A stretch of 47,664 nucleotides of DNA from Planctomycetota bacterium. GTDB lineage: Bacteria; Planctomycetota; Phycisphaerae; Phycisphaerales; SM1A02. Under the pieces are notes generated by a model. It worked only from the letters and a program-made list of their open reading frames with translations. It did not search any database and had not been told where the DNA came from. Positions 2,270 through 42,063 of the stretch are shown in pieces; the stretch's first letter is position 1; each line of letters begins with the position of its first letter. Made by a program: the position numbers and the translations under genes. The stretch is from NCBI GenBank assembly GCA_022563315.1, contig JADFNO010000007.1, forward strand, positions 1 to 47,664. Reading direction: 5' to 3'.

Positions 2270-3973
2270 CTAGCCCCAATTGCCGAGGAGGATGAGTAGA
2301 TCCTTGACGCCGACGGTGCAGTCGCCATCGAAGTCGGCGGGACAGTTGTTGCAGTCGGCGCATGGGCCCCAACTTCCGAGCAGGATGAGCAGATCCTTCA
2401 CGCCGACGACGCCGTCGCCGTCCAGATCGCCGAGGATCACGACCACAGTGAAGAACAGGTCCTTGCCCGCGCCGAGATTATCCGCCGAATCAAGCGCGGT
2501 CACGAAGTACGTGATGGTTCCGCCCTGGGGTTGGCCGGGGATTTCACCGCGCCAAAGCGAATTGCCGCTCCAGGTCATGGGAACCTCTCTAGCCGGGCCC
2601 GCGCCGACGGAGTAATTCAGCGTCACGCCGTGATCGAAAAAGCCGCGGTCGGAAGTGACTTGATCGTAAATGACGGTTCGCACGACGTAGGGCCCGACGG
2701 TGTCGCCGGTGTCTTTGAGTTGCTCAGTCCGGACGATGTTGGGCGGAATCGTGTCGGCCGGCCCGTTGTTGATGTAAATGCGGTTCTCGAAGTTGCCCGA
2801 TTCGCCCTGTGCGGTGACGATGTCGAGCTTCCCGTTGCCGGTGAGATCAGCGACCATGATGTCGAGCGAGGAGTCGCCGATGACCGTGATCAGACCGGAA
2901 ACCTGGGTGAAGTTCCCATTGCCGTCGTTGTTGTAGATCCGTTCGCCGCCGGAGCCGAGCCTGGCGATGATGAGGTCGAGGTCTCCATCATTGTCGTAGT
3001 CAAAGAACTTGCTGTCGTTGTCGTCGAGACTGGAGTTGGGCGATATCTGACCGCTTATGTTGGTGAAGGCGCCCGTTCCATCATTGTCGAGCAGGAGTTC
3101 AGTGGTGCCGGCGCCCGCATTGATGCCGAGGAGATCGAGATCGCCGTCTCCATTGATGTCACCGAAATCGTAGGAATAGCAGGAGCTGTCAGGCGGGATA
3201 TCGGTAACAAGTGAGAATACGCCGGTCCCGTCGTTTCGGTAGAGTCGGCTGTTGTTGCTGCCGGTGCTGGCGGTCTTGACATCCAAGTCGAAGTCACCGT
3301 CGATGTCTCCGAAGATGCAATCCATGTTGTTGCAGACGTTGCCGAGCGGCAGGCGCCCGACCGTTTCGTCAGTGAAGAAGCCCGCGCCATCGTTGAGGTA
3401 CAGGCGGTACTGGCCGCAGCCGAAGCGATTGGTGGATCCGCTGGTGATATAGATGTCGAGATCACCGTCGTTGTCGACATCCCCGAACTGCGCGCGGGAG
3501 CTGCTGAGGGTGATATCAGGTAATTGTGTGGCGGTGACATCCGTGAAGAAACCGGCGCCATCGTTGGTAAAGAGGTGGGGCAGCTTGTTGAAATCCTGGG
3601 CGAAGATCAGGTCGAGATCGCCGTCATTGTCGATATCGCCGAGCTCGACACCACGACACCAGCCGGAAAAGTTGAGCCGGGCCGCAGACTCATCGGTAAA
3701 GACGCCGGACCCGTTGTTGATGTAGACACGTTGTGTTTGAATTGGGCCCTGCGATGAGAAGTTGCCGCCGTTGGCGAAGATGATGTCCAGATCACCATCG
3801 CCGTCGATATCGCCGATCGTGAGCTGATTCGTGTATTCCGTGGGGTTCGGCAGCGGGAAGTGCGTTGATGTCTCCTCGACGAATTGAAGTCCTTCTACCT
3901 GGGCGCTCGCACAGAACCATGGGTAGAGTCCAAGCACGACCGGCACCGCCACCAAATACGTACTACGAAGCAT
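2270..3973 (-). CDS. Secreted seven-repeat VCBS/FG-GAP propeller protein with dockerin-like tail
   Basis: 567 residues from ATG 3973. A signal peptide (MLRSTYLVAVPVVLGLYPW... ending CASAQ) leads to seven FG-GAP/VCBS repeats with calcium-loop cores such as GDIDGDGDLDIIFA, GDIDNDGDLDLIFA, GDVDNDGDLDIYIT, GDINGDGDLDLLG and FDYDNDGDLDLIIA. Seven such repeats usually close a seven-bladed beta propeller. A beta-sandwich-like linker follows (TYFVTALDSADNLGA). The last ~54 residues form two dockerin-like loops, GDLDGDGVVGVKDLLILLG and DFDGDCTVGVKDLLILLG, ending NWG. An upstream in-frame ATG at 4039 would bury the signal peptide, whereas TCCTTT at 3981-3986 (AAAGGA on the coding strand) is 7 bases from ATG 3973. 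Likely extracellular or surface-bound; ligand unknown. Confidence 0.88.
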   Translation of the reverse strand: MLRSTYLVAVPVVLGLYPWFCASAQVEGLQFVEETSTHFPLPNPTEYTNQLTIGDIDGDGDLDIIFANGGNFSSQGPIQTQRVYINNGSGVFTDESAARLNFSGWCRGVELGDIDNDGDLDLIFAQDFNKLPHLFTNDGAGFFTDVTATQLPDITLSSSRAQFGDVDNDGDLDIYITSGSTNRFGCGQYRLYLNDGAGFFTDETVGRLPLGNVCNNMDCIFGDIDGDFDLDVKTASTGSNNSRLYRNDGTGVFSLVTDIPPDSSCYSYDFGDINGDGDLDLLGINAGAGTTELLLDNDGTGAFTNISGQISPNSSLDDNDSKFFDYDNDGDLDLIIARLGSGGERIYNNDGNGNFTQVSGLITVIGDSSLDIMVADLTGNGKLDIVTAQGESGNFENRIYINNGPADTIPPNIVRTEQLKDTGDTVGPYVVRTVIYDQVTSDRGFFDHGVTLNYSVGAGPAREVPMTWSGNSLWRGEIPGQPQGGTITYFVTALDSADNLGAGKDLFFTVVVILGDLDGDGVVGVKDLLILLGSWGPCADCNNCPADFDGDCTVGVKDLLILLGNWG

Positions 3974-3980
3974 GCGGGTG

Positions 3981-3986
3981 TCCTTT
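3981..3986 (-). promoter_or_regulatory. Ribosome binding site that fixes the FG-GAP gene start
   Basis: Reads AAAGGA on the minus strand, 7 bases upstream of ATG 3973. It supports the start directly before the signal peptide rather than ATG 4039. Confidence 0.7.
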
Positions 3987-4269
3987 CCGTAGCAGGTCCC
4001 GTGCCGTGGCGGGTGGGAGTCACCGGCTGCGTTTGTCAACCAAGAGCGGATCGCCGCAATGCGGCGCGAGCGGGTGTGGTCTGCAATCTCTAGAATCTAG
4101 CATATTGGACCGATGAACCCCAAGGAAAATCGCCCGTAATGCGAGCCAGCCACTACCCAGAGGCGTAAGCGACCTCGGGCCGGCAGCGTCGGGCTGGGCT
4201 TCTCGATCGGCTCGCCACGGCCGGTGGATTGAGGGATATGATTCAATAGCCAGCACGACACGGTGATCC

Positions 4270-4566
4270 ATGCCCACCTATGTGTATCAAGTCATTACCG
4301 ACGACGGCTCCGAAGGCGAGACGTTTGAGGCGTTTCAGAAGATGTCGGATCCGCCGCTGACCAAGCACCCCGAGACGGGCCAGCCGGTTCGGCGTGTGAT
4401 TCAGCCGCCGATCATCCCCGGCCGGTGGTCCGAGCACGGTACGAGAAAGATGCTCAGCAACGACAATCTCGATCGGATCGGCTTCACGAAGTACGAGCGC
4501 GCCGGCGATGGGCGTTATGAGAAAAAGGCCGGCAAGGGGCCGCGAACGATCCACCCCGGGCCGTAG
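4270..4566 (+). CDS. Cysteine-less FmdB-like small protein
   Basis: 98 residues. The start MPTYVYQV and the later PVRRVIQPP match the FmdB/CxxC_CxxC_SSSS family (normally MPTYEYxCxxCGxxFE...CPxCGxxVxRLI), a small zinc ribbon of unclear role once linked to formamidase regulation. Here every zinc-binding cysteine is absent: the first pair is replaced by ITDDGSEGE and the second by KHPETG. Overall spacing is kept, so the fold is probably retained without metal. The C-terminal part (RWSEHGTRKMLSNDNL...) is basic and unlike the usual Ser-rich tail. It stands alone between a leftward gene and the end of another leftward gene. Family assignment is moderate; function unknown. Confidence 0.72.
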   Translation: MPTYVYQVITDDGSEGETFEAFQKMSDPPLTKHPETGQPVRRVIQPPIIPGRWSEHGTRKMLSNDNLDRIGFTKYERAGDGRYEKKAGKGPRTIHPGP

Positions 4567-4651
4567 CCCCGCAGGCTCTTCGATCAAGCCTTCAAGCCTT
4601 GGGCAAGAATGTCGCGATGTCCCGATGCCTCGGCGCGATGATTCCTCGTTC

Positions 4652-6124
4652 CTAGCCCCAATTGCCCAAGAGGATGAGCAGATCGGGCACGCCGACGGAG
4701 CAGTCGTCGTCAATGTCGGCAAGGCAGTCAGCGCAATCGTCGCACGGGCCCCAACCGCCCAGGAGTATCAGCAGATCCTTCACCCCCACCGTCCCGTCGC
4801 CATCGAGATCACCGGGCCGGGGAAAGACGACCACGTTGGTGTAGATATCCGCGTCACCCTTGCTGGTGTCGAGATAGATCGGGTAAACACGGTCACCTGC
4901 GACAGCCATCCCGAGGTAATCGCCGATGAAAATTCCTCCGACACTCAATGCGCTATTCCAAGAATTAGGGGTGAGCCGGAACTCGTGCCAGGTATCGCCG
5001 CCGTCATCGCTGTAGGTGTAGTAGGCGTCGAAGAACCCGTTGAAAACGTTGTCGTCCTGAATCGTGTGGCGAGAATCGAGGAAGACGATATGGATTCGCC
5101 CCCGCTTATCGACCTCGAGCCAGGGAAAGAACTGGTCGCCCGGCGGATCGTTATCGCCGTTGATGACGACCGGGGTCGTCCAAGTGGTGCCTTGATCGGT
5201 TGACTTGTTGAAGTACAGATCGACGTTCGCATTGCCGTCGACGATGTCGGTCGTATCGAAGTAGACGGCATAAAGGTTGCCGTTATTCATATCGACGTCG
5301 AGGTAGTTTAGCGACGGTACACGGAAGGCACCGGGGAACCGCGAGCCATCTTGGGTGCCCCACACATCCATGCGCGTGGCGATCGTATGCGTGGTGAAGC
5401 TGGACCCGCCGTCGAGGCTGCGCTTGAGCTTCACGCCGGAGCCGATATCCCAATAGGCGATATAGACCTCGCCGTTCGGTCCGACGCGAGGCAGAAACCC
5501 CAAGCCGCCCCCGAGGCTGAGCGGATTCGTCCAGGTGTGACCCATGTCGTCGGAGCGGATCACGCCGCGGTTGTAGGCGATGAACAGACGCGTAGAGTCT
5601 GGGTTATCCGGTCTCCTGCCGGCGGCCATCCATCCTTTGTCAGCCCCTTTAGAGGCCATCACGGTCGGGGCGAACTCAGTCTGATCGGGATCGAGCCGCG
5701 CAACGTACAATCCGGGGTTGTAGCCAAAGCTTATCGCGCCGGCCCAGAGCGTGCCTGTGCGATCGTCGAACGCCGTGAACGGATCACCCTCGATACGCGC
5801 TTGATTGGGCGGCGGCGGTCGAAGAAGAAAGTCACTCCACGTCTGCCCGCCGTCGAAGCTGAGGCTGAAGCCCGACTTCACCCCACTCCGACGATAGTCG
5901 TTCCACCCGGCCACGATGCGAAGCGGATCCATCTCGCTTGCCGCAGCGGTGGTCTCGTTCGCCGCCGCTGTTCCTCCCCCAACGTCAATGCGCACCTGCG
6001 GTCCGATCGTCGGCATCTGGGCCGAGGCAACGAGCCCCGGCATCATTAGAGCCGCGTGGAAACCAAGGATCGCTACCTTCGACCGGCGAGGTATCAAGCC
6101 TCCGAAGCACATTGTGATGAACAT
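4652..6124 (-). CDS. Secreted Asp-box (BNR/sialidase-like) protein with dockerin-like tail
   Basis: 490 residues. The signal peptide covers about residues 1-36 (VAILGFHAALMMPGLVASAQ). Five Asp-box motifs of the S-x-D-x-G-x-T-W type follow: SFDGGQTW (~89), SDDMGHTW (~191), SLDGGSSF (~236), STDQGTTW (~308) and SDDGGDTW (~372). Such repeats build the sialidase/sortilin-like propeller. The catalytic Arg triad and Tyr of true sialidases cannot be confirmed by eye, so enzyme activity is not claimed. Residues ~437-490 are the same two-loop tail as in three neighbours, ending DLLILLGNWG. GGAGG stands 7 bases before ATG 6124, favouring this start over ATG 6112. Confidence 0.87.
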   Translation of the reverse strand: MFITMCFGGLIPRRSKVAILGFHAALMMPGLVASAQMPTIGPQVRIDVGGGTAAANETTAAASEMDPLRIVAGWNDYRRSGVKSGFSLSFDGGQTWSDFLLRPPPPNQARIEGDPFTAFDDRTGTLWAGAISFGYNPGLYVARLDPDQTEFAPTVMASKGADKGWMAAGRRPDNPDSTRLFIAYNRGVIRSDDMGHTWTNPLSLGGGLGFLPRVGPNGEVYIAYWDIGSGVKLKRSLDGGSSFTTHTIATRMDVWGTQDGSRFPGAFRVPSLNYLDVDMNNGNLYAVYFDTTDIVDGNANVDLYFNKSTDQGTTWTTPVVINGDNDPPGDQFFPWLEVDKRGRIHIVFLDSRHTIQDDNVFNGFFDAYYTYSDDGGDTWHEFRLTPNSWNSALSVGGIFIGDYLGMAVAGDRVYPIYLDTSKGDADIYTNVVVFPRPGDLDGDGTVGVKDLLILLGGWGPCDDCADCLADIDDDCSVGVPDLLILLGNWG

Positions 6125-6360
6125 CTATCGCCTCCGCAACGGGTTATCAGGCGGCCTCGCCCGGCAATACCGCGGGCGTCCAGCCCTTATTAGGATACAC
6201 GCCGACCCCGCCAAAGGAGCGTGCAATTGCCCGCTGAGAGCGAAAAATCTCGTCGCCGGGGACGGTCGGGTCAGATTCCCGCTGCGCATATCCGCTGCAG
6301 GTGCTACAGTGAGATTGTCCGAAGCGCCCAGAGAACGCCTGGAAAACTTGGAGAACCGCA

Positions 6361-7041
6361 ATGAGCTTGATCGGACATCGCGTCGTGTTGATCACGTTCA
6401 TGGCCGGGACGATGCTAGTCGTCGGCTGCCAATCAGCTCAGCCCTCGCCCACCGTCGGCATCAAGCCGCCGCCGTCGCCCGAAAACATCAAGGAAGAACG
6501 GTTCCACCAGGCGATCGAAGGTCTGAACTTCGAGACCGGCTTTGTGGTGGTCGATCCGATCGGCCGGCGGCCCAATACGCGACTCGCCTCCAAGCACCAC
6601 GCCGAAGGTGTCGAGGCGTATAACCAAAACCGGATCATCGATGCGATTACCTCGCAAAACAAGGCCGTGCGCACCGATCCGAATTGGCCCGTGGCATACA
6701 ACAGCCTCGGTCGGGCACTGCTCGGTGAAGGGGAAGGCGAACTTGCCACAGCGGCCTTCCGCACCGCGCTGGCGCTTGACGAGCAATACACCGAGGCACG
6801 ATTCAACCTGTCGTATGCCGTCGCGGGACTTGGAGATCAAGAAGAGGCAATCGAGCTTATGAACGGCGTCGTTCAGGCCCAGCCGGACAATGTCCAGGCC
6901 CACGAACGACTCGCCATCTGGCATTACTACCTCGGCGAGTACGAGACCGCGTGGTCGCATGTACACCGGGCGCAGAATCTCGGCCACGCCATGCCGCCGC
7001 AGTTCATGGTTCTGCTTCAGAAGCAGTCGCCCGAGTCGTAA
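6361..7041 (+). CDS. TPR-repeat lipoprotein
   Basis: 226 residues. A type II signal peptide ends in the lipobox LVVGC (Cys at about 23), so the mature protein should be lipid-anchored. Three or so tetratricopeptide repeats follow from about residue 78: AYNQNRIIDAITSQNKAVRTDP, a second ending AALALDEQYTEARFNLSYA-like helices, then EAIELMNGVVQAQPDNVQAHE. TPRs act as protein-protein scaffolds. GGAG is 8 bases before ATG 6361. It is divergent from the Asp-box gene and converges on the hook-IN pair. Partner unknown. Confidence 0.85.
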   Translation: MSLIGHRVVLITFMAGTMLVVGCQSAQPSPTVGIKPPPSPENIKEERFHQAIEGLNFETGFVVVDPIGRRPNTRLASKHHAEGVEAYNQNRIIDAITSQNKAVRTDPNWPVAYNSLGRALLGEGEGELATAAFRTALALDEQYTEARFNLSYAVAGLGDQEEAIELMNGVVQAQPDNVQAHERLAIWHYYLGEYETAWSHVHRAQNLGHAMPPQFMVLLQKQSPES

Positions 7042-7066
7042 CCGCCTGACCGTACCCAACACGTGG

Positions 7067-7882
7067 TTACGGCTCGTCGTCAACGGCCCGCAGCACGAGG
7101 GCGTTCGCGCCGTAATCCTTCAGATCACCCAAAGCCGGTCCGCCAATGGGCTCAGCGAAGATGAGGTCCGGTCCGTTCAGCGTCCATAGACGGATGAGGC
7201 TGTCAGCGCCGGTCTCGACGGTCCTCACCTCGACCCGCAGGGGATTGATCCTGCTCTGTTCAGCCTCGACGCCGGTCGCTTTGGTGAAGGAATTGATGGC
7301 GGCGATGATGCTCGATTGGCTCGTTCCGCTGGCGAACGTGAACTGCTGCGTACCGTCGTTTCCGGTTATCTCGATCCTGAGCGCACCCTTGCCGCCGTTG
7401 GAATAGGTAGAACTGGTAAACAAGAATGTAACGGCGGCGGCGGCCGGGGCAGCACACATTCCAAGTGGTGCTGGTTGAGTTTCAAAGGGTGTGGCCTGGC
7501 TTACAGCTCGGTCGATCAGCGCCAAGCTTCTGGCGATCTCCCGCGCACGGGCACGTGCGCTACTGCCAACAGTGTCATCGACGGCTCGTGCCGCTTGAAG
7601 TGCCGCTTGAAGCTTGATCAATAGCACGCGCGTTTCGTGAAGACCCGGCGGCGTCGAGTAATCGCCACTCCGGCCCCGGTCCGCACGCCTGTCGGCGAAG
7701 GCCCGCGGCTCGGACACGCCGTTGAACGGCGCCAACATTCGAGAAGCGACGACCGTGCCGGCGAAACCTGTCACGAACACCGCAGTCGCGATTCGCTGAA
7801 ATCGGCTCGGGACAGCGGACGACCCGCGGGCACAGCGAGAAGTCGAGTTGGTAAACGGCTTGTTCAAGTCGGATCTATTCAT
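7067..7882 (-). CDS. Exported/membrane protein with flagellin hook-IN-like domain (copy 2)
   Basis: 271 residues, paralogous along its length with the gene immediately upstream (7931-8752). A basic N terminus precedes a hydrophobic segment at ~31-50 (IATAVFVTGFAGTVVASRML). A helical stretch (~80-130) is followed at ~167-232 by a block resembling the flagellin hook IN motif: LRIEITGNDG, then FTFASGTSQSSIIAAINSF, then TGVEAE, then VETGADSLIRL. The tail GDLKDYGANALVLRAV-DEP is nearly identical in both copies. Hook-IN motifs are otherwise known from flagellin and hook-associated proteins, yet no flagellar gene is in the window. No clear ribosome binding site precedes ATG 7882; with only 48 bases after the first copy it is probably co-transcribed. 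Function unknown. Confidence 0.78.
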   Translation of the reverse strand: MNRSDLNKPFTNSTSRCARGSSAVPSRFQRIATAVFVTGFAGTVVASRMLAPFNGVSEPRAFADRRADRGRSGDYSTPPGLHETRVLLIKLQAALQAARAVDDTVGSSARARAREIARSLALIDRAVSQATPFETQPAPLGMCAAPAAAAVTFLFTSSTYSNGGKGALRIEITGNDGTQQFTFASGTSQSSIIAAINSFTKATGVEAEQSRINPLRVEVRTVETGADSLIRLWTLNGPDLIFAEPIGGPALGDLKDYGANALVLRAVDDEP

Positions 7883-7930
7883 GGTTGCTGCGAAAGGGGC
7901 ACCTTCATCAGGACGAACGTCCCGGTTTTA

Positions 7931-8752
7931 TCAGGGCTCGTCAACGACGGCCCGCAGCACGAGGGCGTTCGCGCCGTAGTCCTTGAGATCAAAGAGCGTC
8001 GGCCCGCCGATGGGTTCAGCGAAGATAACTGGATTGCCCCACATTCGCACGAAGCTGTCTGCACCAACGCTTGTGGACCGCACCTCCACTCGAGCGGGAT
8101 TCGGGACACTCCTTTCGGCTTCAAAGCCGAGCGTGGTTGAGAACGAATTGATCGCGCGAATGATGCTCGTCTGCGGTGTGCCGGACGCGAAGGTGAAATC
8201 CTGGATCCCGCCCACACCCTGAATCCGGATGGTGATACCCGAAGAGAGTTGAAACGCCCCGGTCGAGAGGTAGACGAGCGCAGCCGCGGCGGGCACGGCA
8301 CACTCACCCTCAGCAAGGATCGCCGCCTCCTTGAAGTTGGCGGCCCGGACCACCTGATTGATGACCGCCAGACTCCTGGCAATCTCTCTCGCGCGCGCCA
8401 TGGTTTCTTCTCTCGCGGACTCGCCTTCGGTCCGAGCCGTTGCGAGAGTACGGTGCAACTCCAGAAGCAGTTGGCGCGACTCGTCCAGACGGCGTATCGC
8501 TCGATCAGCGTCGCGTGACGCGCTTTGCGTATAGCCCCGCAGGGATACCATCGGAGTGGGCGCGTTGAACCCCCCAACCCCCGGATTCCCGGATACCGGG
8601 GCCAGAATGCGAGAGGCGGCGATGGCGCCCGCAAAGCCCGTCACAAACACGCCGGTTGCCAAACGCTGCAGGCGGCCGGAAAATTCGGATTGGCGGTTCG
8701 CCCTCGGACGGCGTACGGCCGAGCGCGATGCCTTGGAGTTGAGCGAAGTCAC
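7931..8752 (-). CDS. Exported/membrane protein with flagellin hook-IN-like domain (copy 1)
   Basis: 273 residues from a GTG start with an excellent ribosome binding site. The layout matches its neighbour: Arg-rich N terminus, hydrophobic segment at ~31-50 (LATGVFVTGFAGAIAASRIL), a charged helical part (~78-130), then a hook-IN-like block at ~173-235 (FTFASGTPQTSIIRAINSF, GFEAE, TSVGADSFVRM) and the shared C terminus DLKDYGANALVLRAV. The two copies look like a tandem duplication that has diverged outside the IN block. The hydrophobic segment could be a membrane anchor or a long signal peptide. Function unknown. Confidence 0.8.
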   Translation of the reverse strand: MTSLNSKASRSAVRRPRANRQSEFSGRLQRLATGVFVTGFAGAIAASRILAPVSGNPGVGGFNAPTPMVSLRGYTQSASRDADRAIRRLDESRQLLLELHRTLATARTEGESAREETMARAREIARSLAVINQVVRAANFKEAAILAEGECAVPAAAALVYLSTGAFQLSSGITIRIQGVGGIQDFTFASGTPQTSIIRAINSFSTTLGFEAERSVPNPARVEVRSTSVGADSFVRMWGNPVIFAEPIGGPTLFDLKDYGANALVLRAVVDEP

Positions 8753-8758
8753 AATCGA

Positions 8759-8765
8759 CCTCCTT
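8759..8765 (-). promoter_or_regulatory. Strong ribosome binding site deciding a GTG start
   Basis: Reads AAGGAGG on the minus strand, 6 bases before GTG 8752. There is no ATG at this position, so the site is what fixes the start of the first hook-IN paralogue. Confidence 0.8.
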
Positions 8766-8825
8766 AGTCTTGTTCGCGGTCCAGCAAGTACACCGGCGTG
8801 CGACGCGCTGTGGATTCGAGACGGT

Positions 8826-10316
8826 TCAGCTCCAGTTGGCGAGCAGAATGAGCAGATCGGCGACGCCCACGACTTCGTCAGCGTTCAGGTCGCCCAGACA
8901 CTCAAGCGGCGGCGGCGGGCATGGTCCCCAAAAGGCCAGGAGAATGATGAGATCGGCCGAGTTCACCACGCCGTCGGAGTTCAGGTCGCCCAGCCACGGC
9001 TCGCAGGCGTCGGGAATGCCGTTGTTGTTGACGTCAGTGTCAGCAAGAGGATCAAAAACGTATGCCGAGCCCGAGGAACTGCCGAGATCGTCATGGGAGC
9101 GTGCTCCAGCGATCACCAGGCCACCATCAATCGCAACCGCTCCGCTGAACTCATCATACTGCGCGTTGTCCGATGCCACGAGCATGCCCTGCTCATTCCA
9201 ACTCGCCGCGGCGGGATCGTATGTGTAGACATATGCAACCCCGGCATTTATCGCCGGGAAGTCATGCTTCGGCGCGCCCACAACAACGACGTTTCCTTCG
9301 ATTGCGACGGGTCCGAAATTGTCGTAGCTGTCGCCGTCTGAAGCCACTAGCTTCGCTTCCTCAATCCATTGCGCAGCGCCAACGTCGTACCGATAGACAT
9401 ACGCCGCCCCTGCGTTGGAACCATTGTCATCATCGCCAGTGGCTCCGACTAGGCACACTTCACCGTCGATTGCCACGTGGCGGCCAAACCAATCCCCAGC
9501 TTCGCTATCCGATGGCACGAGCCTGATCTCTTCGATCCACACTCCGATCTTGGGGTAGTACCGAAAGATATAAGCCGAACCCGAATTGCTACCGCTGACA
9601 TCATTCCTATAGGCGCCTACGATGATGCGATCTCCCGCGATATCGACAGCATTGCCGAACCAATCATTCGGCGATCCGTCCGAGGCCAACAGCTCGGCCT
9701 CTTGTATCCATGATCGGCCACCGTCCGCTGATCGAAAGACGTACACCCCTCCCACGTTCGAACCATTCCAACCATGGTCATGCGAGTACGCGCCGACGAC
9801 CGCAACGTCGCCGCTGACGGCGACTGCGAACCCGAATTCGTCCTGACTGGCCCCGTCCGAGGCCAGCAGCTTAGCTTGCTCGATCCATTCGTTTGTGTCG
9901 GCGGTGTAGCGAAATACGTAGGCGGCGCCGGCATGGAACCCGATCTCGTCATTCCACCGCGCACCGACGATCGCAACATCGCCGCTGACATCCACAGATT
10001 CACCGAAGTAGTTGTATGTCTCACCATCCGAAGCGAGCAGCTTGGCCTGCTCGATCCACGACAAGCCATCCTGCACGAAGATGTATGCCGACCCTGATGC
10101 GTAACCGTTCGCATCATCGTTTCGCGCACCGATAATGCCAACCCCACCGCTGATCGACACCGAGATTCCGAAAGAATCGGACTGCGATCCATCCGACGCC
10201 AGCAACTCTACCAATTCACACTGACCCGAGCTTGTCTGGGCCATCCCACTTATCGCCAGCACGACGACACCCGGCAACACCATGCCTCGTGTGATATTGT
10301 GCAGTCGTCTCAACAT
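8826..10316 (-). CDS. Secreted FG-GAP (integrin-alpha-like) seven-repeat protein with dockerin-like tail
   Basis: About 496 residues. The signal peptide (MVLPGVVVLAISGMAQTSSGQ) is followed by seven ~55-residue repeats of the form KLLASDG-x-x-x-D-x-FG-x-x-VxxSGDVAIVGA....GSAYVFRY...WIEQ, for example LLASDGETYNYFGESVDVSG and LLASDGASQDEFGFAVAVSG. These are FG-GAP repeats and seven would close a propeller. Near the end a DTDVNNNGIPDACEP calcium loop leads into the shared tail (GDLNSDGVVNSADLIILLAFWGPC, then VVGVADLLILLANWS), so this copy ends in S instead of G. An in-frame GTG lies one codon upstream (10319); AAGGAG on the coding strand is 8 bases from ATG 10316. Its repeat type differs from the VCBS repeats of the 2270-3973 gene. 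Confidence 0.87.
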   Translation of the reverse strand: MLRRLHNITRGMVLPGVVVLAISGMAQTSSGQCELVELLASDGSQSDSFGISVSISGGVGIIGARNDDANGYASGSAYIFVQDGLSWIEQAKLLASDGETYNYFGESVDVSGDVAIVGARWNDEIGFHAGAAYVFRYTADTNEWIEQAKLLASDGASQDEFGFAVAVSGDVAVVGAYSHDHGWNGSNVGGVYVFRSADGGRSWIQEAELLASDGSPNDWFGNAVDIAGDRIIVGAYRNDVSGSNSGSAYIFRYYPKIGVWIEEIRLVPSDSEAGDWFGRHVAIDGEVCLVGATGDDDNGSNAGAAYVYRYDVGAAQWIEEAKLVASDGDSYDNFGPVAIEGNVVVVGAPKHDFPAINAGVAYVYTYDPAAASWNEQGMLVASDNAQYDEFSGAVAIDGGLVIAGARSHDDLGSSSGSAYVFDPLADTDVNNNGIPDACEPWLGDLNSDGVVNSADLIILLAFWGPCPPPPLECLGDLNADEVVGVADLLILLANWS

Positions 10317-10358
10317 CACGAAAGCTCCTTGAATCGTGACCGATCAGTCGAAGCGAAC

Positions 10359-11498
10359 TTAGCCCCAAGCGCCCAGGAGGATCAGCAAATCGGTCACCCC
10401 CACGTTGCCATCGAAATCGAGATCGGGCGTACAAGCTGCGGGCGGATCGGGACACGGACCCCAAAATGCCAACAGAATCGCCAAGTCGTCTGAATCAACC
10501 ACGCCATCGCCGTTCAGATCAGCCGGACGCAACGTGAACAGTGTCGCCGTATAGGGAAACTCGCAGTCGGCTTCATCCTGGAAGAACGGCGCTACATACA
10601 CCCACCATGTTCCCGATCCCAGCAGCGCCGAGACGTAATTCTCCTGACAAGGCGCCGTTTCCGTAGAACTCACGAAGCAGGTCACGTCGGTGCAGTCTGC
10701 CGTCCCGCCATTATCCACGATCCCGATCAGCGTTCGGAATTCCGCGGTGACCAGCCAAGTGACGATCCGCGGCTCCGTCAGCACGAACTCGTACCAGTCC
10801 GTATCACGAGCGCCGGTATCAGGGTTGGACGCCGTGACGCCGCAGACGGTTTCGCCGTCGGCGATCGGAGAAAACACGGGCTCGGTCGAGTTGCACCCAC
10901 CATTGATGAAATCATCAGGCAGGCCGTCGTCCCCCAACCCGCAGTTGGGCTCGTCTTCGAGCGTCGCACCATCCGGACAGTCAGCGCAAAAGGACGAGCT
11001 CATCGTCACGATGTACATACCGTGCGCGTTCACGAAACCATCAATCACGATGTAGTACGTCACGCCCGCCGACAACGCGACGCCGTCCAGATGAGAGGCG
11101 AAGGTCCGGCCGTCAGAGCCGAAGCAGTCGTCGTCACTGCAAGCAATTGGGTTGCTCTCGTCGGGGCACGAGCCTTCGAATATGAACAGCTCGGTATCGA
11201 ACCCGGAACCGCACAGGCTGATCGTCACCAGTTCGTCCTGCTGCGGTGTGTAGCGGTACACGACATCGCGAGCGTGGGAATCGTTCGCTTCGCCAAACAC
11301 GCAGGTCAGGGCATAATCGTTGGCGAAGAGATTCGTGTTTCCAACATCGACAAACGGCAGGGCGGTGATCTGGACCGCCGACGCGCAATTATCGCCGCCT
11401 TGAGCAGTGGCCTCAGCGGACGCAATCATCGCCGTGCCCAGGGTCATGACCCTGAATGCCCCAACTACACAGCGCCTGCACGAGCCTCGTGTGGCCAT
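10359..11498 (-). CDS. Secreted PPC-like beta-sandwich protein with dockerin-like tail
   Basis: 379 residues. After a signal peptide (~1-33, ending SAEATAQ) comes GDNCASAVQI and a beta-rich region with VVYRYTPQQDELVTISLCGS, FDTELFIFEGSC and GVTYYIVIDGF. This is the pattern of bacterial pre-peptidase C-terminal (PPC)-like domains found in many planctomycete surface proteins. A second such region follows (DTDWYEFVLTEPRIVTWLV...). Many paired cysteines suggest disulphides and an extracytoplasmic location. The tail has the two loops DLNGDGVVDSDDLAILLAFWGPC and DLDFDGNVGVTDLLILLG ending AWG. GGAG is 8 bases before ATG 11498. It lies just upstream of the second FG-GAP gene on the same strand, 42 bases apart. 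Function unknown. Confidence 0.83.
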   Translation of the reverse strand: MATRGSCRRCVVGAFRVMTLGTAMIASAEATAQGGDNCASAVQITALPFVDVGNTNLFANDYALTCVFGEANDSHARDVVYRYTPQQDELVTISLCGSGFDTELFIFEGSCPDESNPIACSDDDCFGSDGRTFASHLDGVALSAGVTYYIVIDGFVNAHGMYIVTMSSSFCADCPDGATLEDEPNCGLGDDGLPDDFINGGCNSTEPVFSPIADGETVCGVTASNPDTGARDTDWYEFVLTEPRIVTWLVTAEFRTLIGIVDNGGTADCTDVTCFVSSTETAPCQENYVSALLGSGTWWVYVAPFFQDEADCEFPYTATLFTLRPADLNGDGVVDSDDLAILLAFWGPCPDPPAACTPDLDFDGNVGVTDLLILLGAWG

Positions 11499-31719: not shown

Positions 31720-31960
31720 TCGACCACGAGCGCGGTCCACACCGGGAGAGGCGTGCTCCGGCCGGCCGGGCAGCTCTCTCGCCGAGGGAGGCATCAGCAC
31801 CCAAGCCTCCCCTACTGGAGTTTGACGAGACCCCCGCTTGTCCTGCTGTCACCAGTCTGGGCGGGCAACACGCCACGGCGCGCTCAGCCGAACCGTACGA
31901 CGGTCCCGATGAAGGGTGCAGGCCAGATGGAAATCGCGGTGTGTGCGTGACGAACCAGCC

Positions 31961-33634
31961 ATGAACGACGGTGTCAAAATGTCCGAGCAATTCGCGCAAT
32001 CAGCCGCCGGGGCGCCGTTCGATGAGCTCGGCTCCGGTGGTCCAGCCGGGCGGGCCGGGGGCGATGGCGCGTCGGTTCGGGACCGGTGCGCCGCATTGCG
32101 AATTGACTGGATGGATGAAGCGCCGTCGGCTACGCCGGAGGCGGTCGCTCTGATCGACCCGGAGATCGCCGTACGCCTGCGGGTCGTCCCCCTGCGGATG
32201 GCAGATGGTCGGTTGGTGGTGGCCATGATCGACCCGCTGGACATCGCCGCCGTCGATGAGGTCTCGACACTCACCGGCCATGTGGTGACGCGGATCGGCG
32301 TCGAACCGCGGCCGTTCTCGGAACTCATGCGGACGCACTATGGCACGACGGCGGCCCGCATCGCCGAGAGCCTCGCCGACGAGGCCACCGACTCGTCCAC
32401 CGAGCTGGAGCACAATCTCGACGCGATCGATGCGGCGGACATCCATCGCATGGCCGAGCAACCGACGTTGATCAACCTGGTCAACCTTGTGCTGCTGGAA
32501 GCAATCCAGTCGCGGGCATCGGACGTTCACATTGAGCCGTTTGAGAACGAACTGAAGGTCAAGTTCCGTATCGACGGCGAGCTGTCGGAGCAGGCGCCGC
32601 CGCCGAAGCACCTTCAGCCGGCGTTGATTGGTCGCATCAAGATCATGGCCGGCATGAACATCGCTGAGCGCTACGTGCCGCAGGATGGTCACATCACGCT
32701 TCGGTTTGAGGGGCGTAAGGTCGATCTTCGCGTGTCAACGGTGCCCACGCTGTACGGCGAGTCGGTGGTGATGCGAATCCTCGACAAGAGCGCCCTGCGT
32801 CTTGATTTCGAGACGTTAGGCATGAACGAGTCGCTTCGCGACAAGGTCGACGCCCTCATCGCCAAGCCGCACGGGCTGGTGCTGGTGACGGGTCCGACCG
32901 GTTCGGGCAAAACGACCACGCTCTACGCCGCCCTCAGCAAGCTCTACGACCCACGCAAGAAGATCATTACCATCGAGGATCCGGTCGAGTACGAGCTCCC
33001 CGGCATCAACCAGATCCCCGTGAATCCCAAGCGCGGTCTGACCTTCGCCACGGGGCTGCGGCACATCCTGCGACAAGACCCGGACATCATCTTCGTCGGA
33101 GAGATCCGCGACCGCGAAACGGCGGAGATCGCGGTTCGCTCGGCTTTGACCGGTCACTTGATCTTCTCGACCTTGCACACCAACGATGCGATCAGCTCGA
33201 TCGGCCGACTCATCGACATGGGCGTCGAACCGTACCTCTTGGCCTCCGTGCTGGAAGGCGCGTTGGCCCAGCGCCTCGGTCGGCGGGTCTGCCCGCACTG
33301 CCGCGAGCAAATGCCGATGCCGGAGGACGTCAGCCACCGCCTTTCGCCCTCGGAGCTGGAACTGTTCAACGGCTCAGTCTGGCGGGGACGCGGCTGCACA
33401 AAGTGCAACGACTCCGGCTACCACGGACGGATCGGATTCTTCGAGCTGGTCCGGGTAACCGCGGCTCTGCGGCGGGCGGTGTCCGAGAACCGGCCGGCGG
33501 CGGACCTCCAGGGGGCCGTCGACGAGTCCTTCATCAACATGCGGCGGGATGGGCTGGAAAAGGCCGCCCAAGGCCGAACCACGATCGAAGAAGTCTTGCG
33601 GGCCACGCAAGATATTGAAGATTCCATCGTTTGA
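31961..33634 (+). CDS. gspE: Type II secretion ATPase GspE
   Basis: 557 residues from ATG 31961; alternative starts are GTG 31916 and ATG 31979, none with a good ribosome binding site. The cytoplasmic hexameric ATPase drives pseudopilus assembly. The N-terminal domain (GSPII_E_N-like, ~60-150) is followed by the ATPase core: SRASDVHIEPFE, Walker A GPTGSGKTTT (~311-320), Asp box IITIEDPVEYELPGINQ (~335), Walker B DIIFVGEIRDRET (~375), His box STLHTNDA (~403). The CPHC...CTKC zinc site (~444-482) is the GspE/PilB tetracysteine. The N terminus is Gly/Ala-rich and poorly conserved. First gene of the E-D run. Confidence 0.95.
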   Translation: MNDGVKMSEQFAQSAAGAPFDELGSGGPAGRAGGDGASVRDRCAALRIDWMDEAPSATPEAVALIDPEIAVRLRVVPLRMADGRLVVAMIDPLDIAAVDEVSTLTGHVVTRIGVEPRPFSELMRTHYGTTAARIAESLADEATDSSTELEHNLDAIDAADIHRMAEQPTLINLVNLVLLEAIQSRASDVHIEPFENELKVKFRIDGELSEQAPPPKHLQPALIGRIKIMAGMNIAERYVPQDGHITLRFEGRKVDLRVSTVPTLYGESVVMRILDKSALRLDFETLGMNESLRDKVDALIAKPHGLVLVTGPTGSGKTTTLYAALSKLYDPRKKIITIEDPVEYELPGINQIPVNPKRGLTFATGLRHILRQDPDIIFVGEIRDRETAEIAVRSALTGHLIFSTLHTNDAISSIGRLIDMGVEPYLLASVLEGALAQRLGRRVCPHCREQMPMPEDVSHRLSPSELELFNGSVWRGRGCTKCNDSGYHGRIGFFELVRVTAALRRAVSENRPAADLQGAVDESFINMRRDGLEKAAQGRTTIEEVLRATQDIEDSIV

Positions 33635-33641
33635 TTGAGGT

Positions 33642-34943
33642 ATGGCATCCTTCCGGTATCAAAGCCTCACGGCAGCAGGACAAGCCCGCCAAGGTGTGAT
33701 CGCAGCTGTCGATCGCCCGGCGGCGGTCCGAATGCTGCTGGGTCGAGGCGAGACGGCCACGAGCATCGATCCGGTTCAGGAGCGTGACGCCCACCCAGAC
33801 CCAACTGGACCCGTCGCCGCCCTGGAAGGCTCGTCGTCTGGCCGCTCGGCTGCGGGTGAGGCGGCTCACATAAGTCTGGCCGCTGTCCTGCACCGCCGAC
33901 TGACCAGACCCTCGGCTCACCGTGCAGAGATGGCCACCCTCATTCGCGAGCTGGCCACGGTCATCGAGGCCGGCCTTCCCATCATGCAAGGTCTGCGCAC
34001 CGTGCGGCGTCAGTGCTCGAACCGAACGATCGCCAGCGTCCTGGACCACCTCATTGTGCGCGTCGAATCCGGCGCTCCGCTGTATCAGGCCGCGGCTGAG
34101 TACGGCCCGCCGTTCGACGACCTCATCATCGGCATGCTGCGGGCCGCCGACGCTTCCGGTGAGATGAGTGAGATTCTGCATCAGCTCGCTGATCTGCTCG
34201 ATCGGTCGCTGGAACTCCGCCGGGAGCTGCTGGGGGCAACGCTGTATCCGATGATTCTCGCCGGCCTCGTCGTCATAAGCGTAATCATTCTCGTAACGGT
34301 TCTCGTACCGCGACTTATCGAGCCGCTGGCCGGTGAATTCAATTTGCCGATGCCGACCCGGATACTCCTCGGTATCGCCGGGTTCATTTCGAGCTATTGG
34401 ATCTACTGCGCGATCGGGATGGTGCTCCTTTGGGTCGGCTGGCAGGCGTGGGTTCGTCTTCCCGCCAACCGGCTGCGCGTGGACACGCTGAAGCTGCGCA
34501 TCCCCGTCCTGGGGCGGCTACTGCGCGACGTCGCGGTCGCCCGGTTCACACGCACGTTGGGAACGCTCATCTCCGCCGGCATCCCGATCCTCGACGCCCT
34601 GCGCGTCACGCGCGACACGCTCGGGAACACGGCGCTCAAACGCCAGATCGACACCGTGCGCGAGCATGTCACCGCCGGCAAGTCGCTGGCCGATCCGCTG
34701 GAGCGCTCCGGACTGTTTCCCCCGCTCTTGGTCCAGGTGGTGGACCTCGGTGAGCGATCCGGACGCCTCGAGAGCATGCTGCTGCATGCCGCGGGCGCAT
34801 TTGATCGTCAGGTGAGCAGCTCGATCAAGCTGTTCACCAAAGCGTTCCCGCCCCTGCTCATTATGATCATGGCGGGCCTGGGCGGATTCGTTCTCGCCGC
34901 GATTCTGCTTCCCTTGCTGGAACTGCAATCAATGATTGGTTGA
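33642..34943 (+). CDS. gspF: Type II secretion inner-membrane protein GspF
   Basis: 433 residues, starting 7 bases after gspE. The platform protein has two T2SSF domains, each with a helical bundle and followed by membrane helices: HRAEMATLIRELATVIEAGLPIMQGLRT (first domain, ~85-205) and VARFTRTLGTLISAGIPILDALRVT (second, ~290-410). Membrane segments lie near ~205-230 (MILAGLVVISVIILVTVLVP), ~245-275 and at the end (PPLLIMIMAGLGGFVLAAILLPLLEL). The MASFRYQSLTAAGQ start is the usual GspF N terminus (FxYxAxDxxG). Confidence 0.93.
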   Translation: MASFRYQSLTAAGQARQGVIAAVDRPAAVRMLLGRGETATSIDPVQERDAHPDPTGPVAALEGSSSGRSAAGEAAHISLAAVLHRRLTRPSAHRAEMATLIRELATVIEAGLPIMQGLRTVRRQCSNRTIASVLDHLIVRVESGAPLYQAAAEYGPPFDDLIIGMLRAADASGEMSEILHQLADLLDRSLELRRELLGATLYPMILAGLVVISVIILVTVLVPRLIEPLAGEFNLPMPTRILLGIAGFISSYWIYCAIGMVLLWVGWQAWVRLPANRLRVDTLKLRIPVLGRLLRDVAVARFTRTLGTLISAGIPILDALRVTRDTLGNTALKRQIDTVREHVTAGKSLADPLERSGLFPPLLVQVVDLGERSGRLESMLLHAAGAFDRQVSSSIKLFTKAFPPLLIMIMAGLGGFVLAAILLPLLELQSMIG

Positions 34944-34978
34944 CTCGCGCCGACCGGAACGGGATATCGGCGCTCTTT

Positions 34979-34984
34979 GGGAGG
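34979..34984 (+). promoter_or_regulatory. Ribosome binding site deciding the gspG start
   Basis: GGGAGG, 7 bases before ATG 34992. It rules out the in-frame TTG at 34977, which overlaps the site itself. Confidence 0.8.
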
Positions 34985-34991
34985 TCCTGAC

Positions 34992-35426
34992 ATGACAACG
35001 AGATATGCCAAACAACACCAGCCTCGTCAGGTTCGCCGAGCGTTCACGCTGATCGAGATCATCGTCGTCGTCACGATCATCGCGCTGCTCGCCACGCTGA
35101 TTGCACCGCGCCTGATCGGACAAATCGGCGGGGCCAAAGTCGGCGTGGCCAAGAGTGAAGTGCGATCGATCGGGACGGCGGTCACTATGTATGTCACGGA
35201 CACGGGCACGACGCTCGACGACAGCTTTGATCTGGAGGTGCTTCTGCTCCCGCCCGGAGAGGGCGGCGGACCACAGGGCCCGTACCTCAACAAGGCTGAG
35301 GACCTGATCGATCCGTGGGAAAACCTCTACGCCATTCGCGTTCCCGGCGACGTGAACTACGACTTTGATGTCTACTCCATTGGACCGGACGGCCACGCCG
35401 GCACCGACGACGACATCTCCAACTGA
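34992..35426 (+). CDS. gspG: Major pseudopilin GspG
   Basis: 144 residues. A basic leader (MTTRYAKQHQPRQVRR) ends at the prepilin peptidase site RRA|FTLIEIIVVVTIIALLATLIAPRL. The residue before cleavage is Ala rather than the usual Gly; the conserved Glu at +5 is present. The C-terminal calcium-binding segment of GspG is clear: DPWENLYAIR, YDFDVYSIGPDGHAGTDDDI. GspG polymerises into the pseudopilus that pushes substrates through the secretin. It follows gspF and precedes gspH by 21 bases. Confidence 0.94.
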   Translation: MTTRYAKQHQPRQVRRAFTLIEIIVVVTIIALLATLIAPRLIGQIGGAKVGVAKSEVRSIGTAVTMYVTDTGTTLDDSFDLEVLLLPPGEGGGPQGPYLNKAEDLIDPWENLYAIRVPGDVNYDFDVYSIGPDGHAGTDDDISN

Positions 35427-35447
35427 ACGGACTGAATCGACCGCACG

Positions 35448-36035
35448 ATGCCCATATCCGTCAAGCCAACGAGTCGAGCATTCACGCTCATGGAGTTGAT
35501 CATCGTCATCATTGTAATGGCGATGATCATGAGCATTACGATCCCGCGCCTCGTCAGCCATGGTCGTCGCGAGCTGCAACTGGCGGCGGATCAACTCCTT
35601 GACATGCTGACGATGTTCGCCCAACGTGAGGCGACCGAGCAGAAACCGATCGCGTTGTGGCACGATGCGGATCGCAACTGGATCGTGCTGATGGTTCTGG
35701 ATATTGATCCGGCGGACCCCGAGGCGCCGCCCGACTGGCGCCTTGACCCCTACGTGTCGCCGGTCAAGCTCCCTTCGACCGTAGACTGGCACTACGTCCA
35801 GGCGATTCAGGATGGTGAACAGGTCGACTTCCAGAAGTGGCCGATCGCGACCAAACCGGGCGAGCCTCGGCCGACGATCGAAATCTCATTCGCGAACGAA
35901 GAGGGATTGACCAAGACCATCATCCTTCCTTCCCACGCGTTGGCCCCCTATCAGCAGGGCGAGCCCGGGGCCTATTCCGATCTGCGGTATCCCATCGATC
36001 TCGATGCCGCCGGTCGCCGGCAGGAGGATTGGTAA
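35448..36035 (+). CDS. gspH: Minor pseudopilin GspH
   Basis: 195 residues. Prepilin N terminus SRA|FTLMELIIVIIVMAMIMSITIP with Glu at +5 and, as in gspG, Ala before the cut site. The rest is beta-rich with LQLAADQLLDMLTMFAQREATEQ resembling the GspH helix after the N-terminal helix, and has no cysteine. Minor pseudopilins prime and cap the pseudopilus. The stop and the gspI start are adjacent (TAA then ATG), so translation is probably coupled. Confidence 0.85.
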   Translation: MPISVKPTSRAFTLMELIIVIIVMAMIMSITIPRLVSHGRRELQLAADQLLDMLTMFAQREATEQKPIALWHDADRNWIVLMVLDIDPADPEAPPDWRLDPYVSPVKLPSTVDWHYVQAIQDGEQVDFQKWPIATKPGEPRPTIEISFANEEGLTKTIILPSHALAPYQQGEPGAYSDLRYPIDLDAAGRRQEDW

Positions 36036-36506
36036 ATGACCGCGTTGCCGCGCCGTCGCCCCCGCCGGGGTTTTGCACTGATGGACGTGATCGTCGGCGG
36101 CGTGATGCTCGGCATCGGGCTTGGTGTGGTGCTCACGCTGGCCAGCCGGGCCATCACCGCCCAAGCCCAGGGTGAACGGCAACTGGTCGCGGCGTGGTTA
36201 CTCGATGAGCTGCTCGCGATGGTCGTCGTCGAAGGTCCCGTTGAGTATCCGCATCTGCATCCCACACACGGTCAGTTCGACCCTCCGTTCGAGGGTTTCC
36301 AGTTCGAGGTCAATCTTGAAGACCTCGGCGTCGGACAGCCGTTCCTCGTGACGGCGACGGTGCGCTGGCCTCGGGGTCGCGAGGAACGTCAGGTCCAGGC
36401 ACAGACGTATGTCGCCCCGCGCTTTGTCGATCCGGAAAACCCCTACGAGCAGCGCATTCCCGTAGAACCGATTGATCGAATCGACAGGTGGTACGACGAT
36501 GAATAG
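36036..36506 (+). CDS. gspI: Minor pseudopilin GspI-like
   Basis: 156 residues. Cleavage site RRG|FALMDVIVGGVMLGIGLGVVLTLASRA: Gly at -1 is kept, but the usual Glu at +5 is Asp (FALMD). The following QGERQLVAAWLLDELLAMV matches the region in GspI after the membrane helix, and the C-terminal half is a small beta domain (FEVNLEDLG, LVTATVRWPRGREERQVQ). Identification as I rests on order and on this helix. It overlaps gspJ by 8 bases. Confidence 0.82.
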   Translation: MTALPRRRPRRGFALMDVIVGGVMLGIGLGVVLTLASRAITAQAQGERQLVAAWLLDELLAMVVVEGPVEYPHLHPTHGQFDPPFEGFQFEVNLEDLGVGQPFLVTATVRWPRGREERQVQAQTYVAPRFVDPENPYEQRIPVEPIDRIDRWYDDE

Positions 36507-37452
36507 GCCCGGACAGTCGCATCGAGGCTTCACGCTCGTGGAAGTGATGGTGGCGGGCATTATCACGACCTTTCTGCTGGGCTCAGTGAGCATGAGTCTT
36601 TCGCAGCTGGCCAAAGCCAAGGCGAGCACGACACAGCGGCTGGCGGCGCATCTGCGCGCCGACGCAGCGCTCGAATCGCTGCGCCGCGAGATCGTCTCCG
36701 TGATCCGCAGTGACGACCTGTTCTGGTCGCGCCTTCTCATCGAAGACGACGCGATCAACAGCTCGGTCGGGCGCCTGGATCGCGACGAAATCCTGGTCTT
36801 CTCAACGCGGTTCCGTCCCATCCACCCCGTCGAGTTTTCGGGCGAGGGGATGGAGTATGAGTCGCAGTTTCGCATCGAAGACGACGAGCTCGGTCCCGTC
36901 CTCTGGCACCGCCGCGACGCCGTGCCGGATGAATACCCGCGCGGCGGCGGGACCGCGACTCCGCTGGTCGATGGGCTCATCTCGCTGAGTATCGAAGCCT
37001 ATGACGGCCAGCAGTGGTACGAGCAGTGGGACTCGGACCTCGACGGCCTGCCGATGGCCATTCGCGTCACGGTGGTCGCCAGTGGCCACGCGCTGGGCGA
37101 CGAGGCGTACGACGAACGACTGCCGATCGCGATCTTGCGAACGGTGATCCCAATCGATCGCGTGCTGCCGCCGCTCGATCCAAACGCCCAAGACGAGCTG
37201 CCCGAAGGGGAATTGGGGGCAGAGGGCGCGGCCACCGGCGGCGCCACCGACCGCGACGCCGAGACCGGCGCGGACGGTGACACCGGGGTTGAAGCGCCCG
37301 GGCGCACCCCCAGCGGTTCCACCGGCGGTTCCACCGGCGGCAGTTCCACCGGCGGCCGAACCGGCTCAGGCCCCGACGTCACCAACCAAGATAGAGACAA
37401 TCGCAACTCGCGCTCGAGGGTCCGCTCGTCCCGCGGCCAAGGAGGCACATGA
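36499..37452 (+). CDS. gspJ: Minor pseudopilin GspJ-like with low-complexity tail
   Basis: 317 residues from ATG 36499. Prepilin site HRG|FTLVEVMVAGIITTFLLGSVSMSLSQLA with Glu at +5. The following region ASTTQRLAAHLRADAALESLRREI is the usual GspJ helix. The C-terminal ~100 residues are of unusual composition: Ala/Gly/Asp-rich, then Ser-Thr-Gly repeats (STGGSTGG, SSTGGRTGSG) and an Arg/Asn/Ser end (NSRSRVRSSRGQGGT). The stop overlaps the gspK ATG (ATGA). A TTG at 36472 is in frame but lies inside gspI; the AGGTGG before ATG 36499 fits better. Confidence 0.84.
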   Translation: MNRPGQSHRGFTLVEVMVAGIITTFLLGSVSMSLSQLAKAKASTTQRLAAHLRADAALESLRREIVSVIRSDDLFWSRLLIEDDAINSSVGRLDRDEILVFSTRFRPIHPVEFSGEGMEYESQFRIEDDELGPVLWHRRDAVPDEYPRGGGTATPLVDGLISLSIEAYDGQQWYEQWDSDLDGLPMAIRVTVVASGHALGDEAYDERLPIAILRTVIPIDRVLPPLDPNAQDELPEGELGAEGAATGGATDRDAETGADGDTGVEAPGRTPSGSTGGSTGGSSTGGRTGSGPDVTNQDRDNRNSRSRVRSSRGQGGT

Positions 37453-38798
37453 TCGCTTCGCCGCACATCAACGTCCCGTACACCCGCCGCGGCTCGGTCG
37501 TGGTCGTCGTGATGTGGTCGATCGCCCTGGGGGCCCTGCTGGTAAGTTCCGTGCAGTTACGGGGCTACCGGCAAAAGGCGATCGGAACCGAAGCGGTGGC
37601 CCGCGTCCAGGCCCGGTGGGCGGCCCGCGGAGGCATCGAGTTCACCATCGCCGTCATGGCCGACCAAACCCAGAACCCGGTCCCGGATGACGCGTTCGCC
37701 ATCGTCCGAGAGATGGACTACATCGCCGCCGGCGACCTGCTCAACGCCAGTTACGACATTCGACACCATGCGGACGGCCAGACCTGGGCCGGTCCGATGG
37801 ACGAGCATTCGAAGATCAATGTCAACACGACGCTGGAAGAGCGCGGACTTCTGCTGGCGCTGGACGACATGACCTTCGACGTGGCCGATGCAATTTTCGA
37901 TTGGATCGACGAGGACGACGACGTTCGGGCGCTCGGGGCCGAGCGCGATTACTATCTCAGCTCGTCCAACTCCTACGAGCCGCGCAACGCCCCCATGCGA
38001 AGCATTGCCGAGTTGGAGCTCGTGGCCGGCATCTGGCCTGAGTACCTGCGCGGCGAAGATTGGAATCTCAACAACCGGCTCGACGCCAACGAGGACGATG
38101 GCGAACGCACCTGGCCCGATGATGAAGCGGACCAGCAGCTCGATGCCGGCTGGTCAGCGTACCTCACGACCTACTCGACGCGAAGCGCGATCGGCGCCTC
38201 CGGCCTGCCGAAGATTCGCCTGGGGGCGGCTGACCCCGCCCAGTTGATGGATCGGATCGGCGTGGACGAAGCGACCGCCGAGGCGCTTGTGAACTTCGGT
38301 CGAAATGAAAACAACCAGATGGTCCAACTGCTCGAAGTGTTCATGCAGTCTCGAATCAGGGCGGGCGGGACACCCCCTCAGGCCGGGGGATCAGCGGCGC
38401 CGCTGCTGGAAGAGGATCAGCTTCGACTGGTGCTCAGGGAAACCATGATCGACAATCCCACGCGGCGGCAGCCGGGGAAGATGAACATCAACACCATCTC
38501 CGCGGCACTGCTGCGGCAGTTGTTCTTTACCCGTGAATACCTCGCCGACGAGATCATCTACCTTCGCAGCAGCCGGCAGGAGGGAATCACGAGCCTCGTC
38601 GATCTCACGGACATCCCGGCCTTCCAGGAAGATGCCGAGGCGTTCAGCTTCGTCGCCCGCAACATGGACACGACCAGCAGCGTCTACTCGATCAGCTCCC
38701 GCGGCCGCTCGTGGTCAGGCGGCATCGAGGTCGAAATCACCGTCGTCGTCGATCGTTCAACCCTTCCCATTCGAATCCTTGAGTATCGTGAACAATGA
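37449..38798 (+). CDS. gspK: Minor pseudopilin GspK-like
   Basis: 449 residues. The start RRG|SVVVVVMWSIALGALLVSSVQLRG has the GspK-type helix, which often lacks the +5 Glu. A large domain then carries EEHSKINVNTTLEE-like sequence (actual segment MDEHSKINVNTTLEERGLL, ~117-135) and repeated MNINTISAALLRQLF and DLTDIPAFQEDAEAF, the helix-hairpin-helix-like repeats of GspK. GspK sits at the pseudopilus tip with I and J. It shares ATGA overlaps with both neighbours. Confidence 0.88.
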   Translation: MIASPHINVPYTRRGSVVVVVMWSIALGALLVSSVQLRGYRQKAIGTEAVARVQARWAARGGIEFTIAVMADQTQNPVPDDAFAIVREMDYIAAGDLLNASYDIRHHADGQTWAGPMDEHSKINVNTTLEERGLLLALDDMTFDVADAIFDWIDEDDDVRALGAERDYYLSSSNSYEPRNAPMRSIAELELVAGIWPEYLRGEDWNLNNRLDANEDDGERTWPDDEADQQLDAGWSAYLTTYSTRSAIGASGLPKIRLGAADPAQLMDRIGVDEATAEALVNFGRNENNQMVQLLEVFMQSRIRAGGTPPQAGGSAAPLLEEDQLRLVLRETMIDNPTRRQPGKMNINTISAALLRQLFFTREYLADEIIYLRSSRQEGITSLVDLTDIPAFQEDAEAFSFVARNMDTTSSVYSISSRGRSWSGGIEVEITVVVDRSTLPIRILEYREQ

Positions 38799-42059: not shown

Positions 42060-42063
42060 CCCC

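Follow-up and report, generated by a model that had tools for sequence, protein, structure and literature searches.

Dockerin-fold C-terminal tails on exported proteins of Phycisphaerae follow the genome and not the cargo

Every genome compared here writes its C-terminal protein tails in a dialect of its own, a new observation, with the differences falling mainly, in each of the two repeats of the tail, on positions 10 and 11 of the loop and position 14 of the helix. The tails follow the genome and not the cargo to which they are attached, which points to one common receptor per genome. The best reading is that the tail works as a dockerin-like docking tag, and it is probable that this dockerin-fold tag, carried at the C terminus of exported proteins, is received by a single partner common to the cell that is not a recognisable cohesin.

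The starting point is a window of 47,664 nt, the whole stretch of DNA analysed, which constitutes contig C183 of a Phycisphaerae bin (3.76 Mb, 96.5 % complete) whose closest named genomes, judged by the MetH protein, are those of uncultured Planctomycetota and Phycisphaerae. A first-pass annotation had claimed that four exported proteins in the window share one two-loop C-terminal tail, and this is confirmed, with all four ORFs present on the − strand. The features concerned are as follows.

2270–4039, − strand: tailed protein 1, with signal peptide, FG-GAP_3/VCBS-type propeller repeats (PF13517, E 3.4e-46) and C-terminal tail
2273–2440, − strand: tail of protein 1, VGVKDLL in both repeats, end NWG (four-tail profile E 3.7e-30)
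4652–6124, − strand: tailed protein 2, with signal peptide, BNR/Asp-box propeller and C-terminal tail
4655–4825, − strand: tail of protein 2, VGVKDLL and VGVPDLL, end NWG (four-tail profile E 7.8e-30)
8826–10319, − strand: tailed protein 3, with signal peptide, seven FG-GAP_2 repeats (PF14312, E 2.8e-117) and C-terminal tail
8829–8999, − strand: tail of protein 3, VNSADLI and VGVADLL, end NWS (four-tail profile E 4.7e-32)
10359–11498, − strand: tailed protein 4, with signal peptide, PPC-like domains (weak DVUA0089-family match only) and C-terminal tail
10362–10532, − strand: tail of protein 4, VDSDDLA and VGVTDLL, end AWG
31916–44685, + strand: type II secretion operon, with ATPase E, F, pseudopilins, K and secretin D (PF00437, PF00482, PF11612, PF21687, PF00263)

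Alignment of the four double-loop tails, each of 57 aa, gives a mean column identity of 75 % with 27 invariant columns. The overall pattern of the motif described in the first-pass annotation stands, but the endings differ between proteins, and the DG ascribed to both loops does not hold for the second, where three of the tails have a residue other than Gly at position 6. Similarly, cargo that had been called unrelated does belong to different families; two of the four are nevertheless both FG-GAP-type propellers, so that the term applies to families and not to folds throughout. Two adjoining paralogues of approximately 270 aa (53 % identical) lie between the tailed genes at 7067–8752 (− strand), the first with a Flagellin_IN match and the second with a weak Flagellin_N match only. 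The pair is seen at full length in G000–G002 only, other matches being frames of approximately 500 aa that are probably flagellins, and as it is missing from many tail-rich genomes it was rejected as the partner of the tail. Convergent with the first tailed gene is a gene (735–2138, + strand) for an exported protein that has a PA14/fibro-slime domain (TIGR02148, E 1.7e-32) and is without a tail.

Beyond the window, 157 matches to a profile built from the four tails occur across the 3.76 Mb genome at E ≤ 0.01, of which approximately 100 are full length at E < 1e-16, a number that excludes chance. This answers the genome-wide count proposed in the first-pass annotation: reading of the stretches around the profile matches gives 105 distinct tails within 6 residues of a stop codon, almost all of them 0–3 residues before it. 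These comprise three subtypes, A (51 tails, end NWG), B (48 tails, end WGPCP) and C (6 tails, end FGPCP), the last of which differs from the others in its helix residues. A mixed bin was rejected as the cause of the subtypes, since A and B occur together on contigs C60 and C112 and thus do not derive from two organisms. A minority dialect, CPWDVNGDG...NHHD...NGRDVAAVA..HFGPCP, is found at L002, L003, L005, L006, L007, L008 and L119 of the same genome and is detected by Pfam Dockerin_1; these tails may read a second partner.

Tails on cytoplasmic proteins, which would have spoken against an exported tag, were not seen. By a simple rule, a start resembling a signal peptide is present in 67 of the 79 complete ORFs with a tail, compared with 7 of 75 internal segments from the same ORFs, and several of the 12 that fail the rule look like signal peptides by eye. 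The cargo encompasses FG-GAP, Kelch, BNR and NHL propellers, beta-helices, M12B reprolysin-like peptidases and subtilases, and 14 matches to the NCBIfam choice-of-anchor Q, B and O families occur among 92 tailed proteins. Choice-of-anchor families are named for members that use different anchors in different bacteria. The proposal of a sorting or anchoring tag with varied propellers as cargo is thereby well supported, by approximately 105 exported proteins, a strictly C-terminal position and many cargo families, and further by the choice-of-anchor families and the scarcity of PEP-CTERM proteins in tail-rich genomes (see below).

The designation 'dockerin-like' proved right for the fold. The tail is modelled by AlphaFold2 as a dockerin with a pLDDT of 94.6, and its nearest solved structure is 2y3n_B (Z 9.6, rmsd 1.0 Å over 53 of 57 residues), the type II dockerin of Bacteroides cellulosolvens Cel48 solved in complex with its cohesin; 2y3n is also the best solved structure by sequence (E 1.9e-6). 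The two share fold, calcium ligands, two near-identical repeats and hydrophobic contact residues at positions 10, 14 and 20. Unlike the Cel48 dockerin, which docks a cellulase to a cohesin, the tails described here are carried mostly by propellers, beta-helices and proteases, with no cohesin detected. The two calcium loop–helix repeats that characterize Dockerin type I (PF00404) are present, as judged from the predicted structure and ligand positions, although the PF00404 cut-off of 22.9 bits is reached by window protein 4 only (24.4 bits; protein 3 scores 22.2, and proteins 1 and 2 give no match), and at E ≤ 0.001 the model matches 10 of the 92 tailed proteins.

The nearest curated family is the uncharacterized NCBIfam NF041540 (GC-type dockerin), a name for which the literature search found no paper, and of which the tails constitute a divergent dialect. 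Both are C-terminal double-loop tails of exported Phycisphaerae proteins, present in many copies per genome. Unlike NF041540 members, the four window tails fall below its cut-off of 29 bits (the first scores 20 bits), none of the four proteins is among the matches listed at E ≤ 0.1, and of 92 full-length tailed proteins only 4 reach E ≤ 0.001. Across this genome NF041540 yields 14 matches at E ≤ 0.001 and recovers 25 of 30 tails at E ≤ 1, whilst tails of the relatives G004, G021 and G025 exceed its cut-off in numbers. The tail is therefore not filed as a full member of NF041540, because the window tails miss the cut-off, nor as a cohesin-paired dockerin, because such a partner was searched for and not found. 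In several G025 tails (e.g. L310–L318) the calcium loops are long and degenerate yet the VFDLLELL contact face is retained, which might mean that calcium binding is less important there.

Examples of the dialects are VGVKDLL in this genome, V(N/D)VFDLLELL in G020 and G025, VDGADLG in G004 and VNGADLA in G021, the tails of other genomes having been chosen via the NF041540 and A2 profiles. In both repeats, the mutual information between column and genome peaks at position 10 (z 19.3 and 20.5) and position 11 (z 11.7 and 14.0), which were fixed beforehand as the specificity determinants of dockerins (PMC8063739), and at position 14 (z 18.5 and 19.3), which was chosen from the same data, so that its figures are partly circular. 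Other positions, for example 3 and 9, give a weaker signal (z approximately 9), and calcium ligands 1, 5 and 12 are much less informative about the genome than positions 10, 11 and 14. Identity over positions 10 and 11 is 0.63 for unrelated cargo within one genome but 0.17 for homologous cargo from different genomes, which is close to the 0.16 seen when both genome and cargo differ. The corresponding values for the calcium ligands are 0.86, 0.88 and 0.85, whereas same-genome unrelated cargo compared with related cargo of different genomes gives 0.93 versus 0.92 for Trp20 and 0.33 versus 0.26 for the linker. One such pair, cargo of G004 and G000 that is 51 % identical over 440 residues, reads GAGGAG versus VKLVKL at the six tail positions.

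By alignment, the dialect positions coincide with cohesin-recognition or cohesin-contact positions in 2y3n, the nearest dockerin. In that structure Met17/Met50 at position 10 and Phe27/Phe60 at position 20 are indispensable, and Met21 at position 14 makes contact with the cohesin (PMC8063739); that a position-14 double mutant kept its affinity (PMC8063739) counts against the docking-tag explanation. The genome-specific dialect, which lay beyond the reach of the first-pass annotation, is the main evidence that points to a common receptor.

A dialect could also arise from concerted evolution with no partner involved, with tails spreading among gene 3′ ends by recombination, a founder particular to each lineage expanding, and the tail serving as a stability or solubility cap. 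An out-of-frame half repeat lies within 300 bases past the stop codon in 5 of 105 tailed genes (L077, L089, L106, L124 and L130 of this genome), with none in the upstream control, and such half repeats are perhaps the remains of older tails replaced after a tail swap. Furthermore, synonymous diversity, set against an expectation taken from codon use in the same ORFs, is only 0.47 and 0.52 of that expectation in subtypes B and C, marking these as recent expansions. Together, these observations indicate that recombination, by swapping or conversion, adds part of the tail likeness. It does not account for all of it, as synonymous codon diversity in conserved tail columns stands at 0.76–1.04 of expectation per genome, and 0.88 in subtype A, such that silent sites approach saturation; tail likeness is therefore not only recent copying, and the dialect was held whilst silent sites diverged. 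Positions 10, 11 and 14 remain fixed despite this divergence, whereas the linker and position 7 vary, and a founder effect leaves unexplained the coincidence of the dialect with the cohesin-contact positions of both repeats, so that concerted evolution alone seems unlikely. Less likely again is homotypic docking, in which tails bind each other and so make up a coat, no separate receptor being needed: the dialect is common to both repeats of a tail, positions 10 and 14 co-change (V-L, F-L, G-G, G-A) and no receptor was found, yet known dockerins use this face for cohesins.

The first-pass annotation had also stated that dockerins normally pair with cohesins, and had suggested a cohesin-like or sortase-like partner; neither was detected in this genome, and its interpretation of a tag for surface anchoring is, as a whole, partly supported. 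Cohesin PF00963 has no match at E ≤ 1 in this genome, and a planctomycete cohesin-like profile (A3) has none at E ≤ 0.1 in G000–G005, which are this genome and its nearest relatives. These results bear on the proposal of a classical cohesin–dockerin system of the 'planctosome' type, a hypothesis put forward for the freshwater Nemodlikiaceae (PMC6461901), whose cohesin would here have diverged beyond detection. The likeness is considerable, encompassing Phycisphaerae, dockerin-bearing exported proteins and reprolysin-type peptidases amongst the cargo, and a few relatives (e.g. L252, L255, L250 and L256) do possess cohesin-like domains, together with HYR-like and dockerin-like parts, within proteins that resemble the published planctosome adaptor (PMC6461901). 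Unlike the system described here, however, a planctosome requires cohesin-bearing anchor and adaptor proteins, and no adaptor with cohesin, HYR and dockerin parts was detected in G000–G005. Cohesin-like matches occur in only 4 of 21 genomes with at least 60 tail matches and also in 2 of 11 with fewer than 10, and hence do not track tail number; a hidden cohesin is accordingly a minority view, if the least improbable of these alternatives. A scaffoldin with several cohesins and cellulase cargo, as in a cellulosome, was likewise not found in this genome. A cleaved sorting signal of the sortase type shares with the tail a strict C-terminal place on many exported proteins (cf. LPXTG, PEP-CTERM and GlyGly-CTERM), but is already disfavoured and highly improbable: the window tails lack a transmembrane helix or basic end, and sortase PF04203 (E ≤ 0.001) is found in 1 of 40 genomes, which is not this one. 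Exosortase PF09721, present in 35 of the 40 in tail-rich and tail-poor genomes alike, was rejected as the partner on that ground, and the three exosortase loci of this genome, when read, contain no obvious receptor.

Under the preferred reading of a docking tag with a common receptor, the tailed proteins would leave the cytoplasm via their signal peptides, which are evident from the sequences, and type II secretion would probably carry them through the outer membrane; its operon lies 20 kb from the tailed genes. The tail is predicted with high confidence to fold into two loop–helix repeats, which on the strength of their ligands should bind calcium. Its exposed face comprises positions 10 and 11 in the loop, position 14 in the helix and the conserved Trp20. 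If the dialects are read correctly, this face would bind one receptor common to all tailed proteins of the cell, so gathering propellers, beta-helix proteins and proteases at what is presumably the cell surface, or in a surface complex. As the receptor drifts between species, all tails would drift along with it, giving each genome its own dialect.

With regard to distribution, a search of 39 named relatives gives more than 60 tail matches in 20, 17–39 in 8 and 0–6 in 11. In a sample of the phylum, for which up to 22 candidates per genome were scored and match counts are thus minima and not totals, every one of the 22 genomes from this class, the present one among them, has a match, with scattered and mostly weak matches outside the class. 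PEP-CTERM proteins number at most 5 in 11 tail-rich genomes and up to 88 in 9 tail-poor ones; six or more matches occur in 0 of 11 versus 6 of 9 (Fisher p 0.002, uncorrected for relatedness), a contrast drawn from 20 related genomes with a 24-position model, and with counts also low in three of the tail-poor genomes. The tail resembles the PEP-CTERM/exosortase system in tagging exported proteins of diverse families in bulk at the C terminus, and both share ScyF and T5SS/PEP-CTERM repeat cargo. Unlike the PEP-CTERM signal, with its motif, membrane helix, basic end and exosortase cleavage, the tail is a folded domain and lacks all of these, and the window tails terminate in NWG, NWS or AWG. Tentatively, and with rather less assurance than for the docking tag itself, Phycisphaerae may possess a bulk anchoring system in which a non-cohesin receptor and the hundred or more dockerin-fold tails that it reads have entered species-specific lock-and-key co-evolution, and which has largely replaced PEP-CTERM tagging in these lineages.

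Dockerin tails with no cohesin have so far been unexplained in planctomycete genomes, and the dialects make the question testable, as they point to the residues that would touch the partner and predict that a tail from one species will not substitute for that of another. Positions 10, 11 and 14 likewise provide, through co-variation, a signal by which the receptor gene might be found. If true, much of the secretome in one bacterial class would be anchored through a lock-and-key system, which could also furnish orthogonal protein plugs. In two tail-poor genomes, G022 (L245) and G037 (L246), a PEP-CTERM-like end comes after a dockerin-like stretch, an arrangement that resembles the stacking of two anchors.
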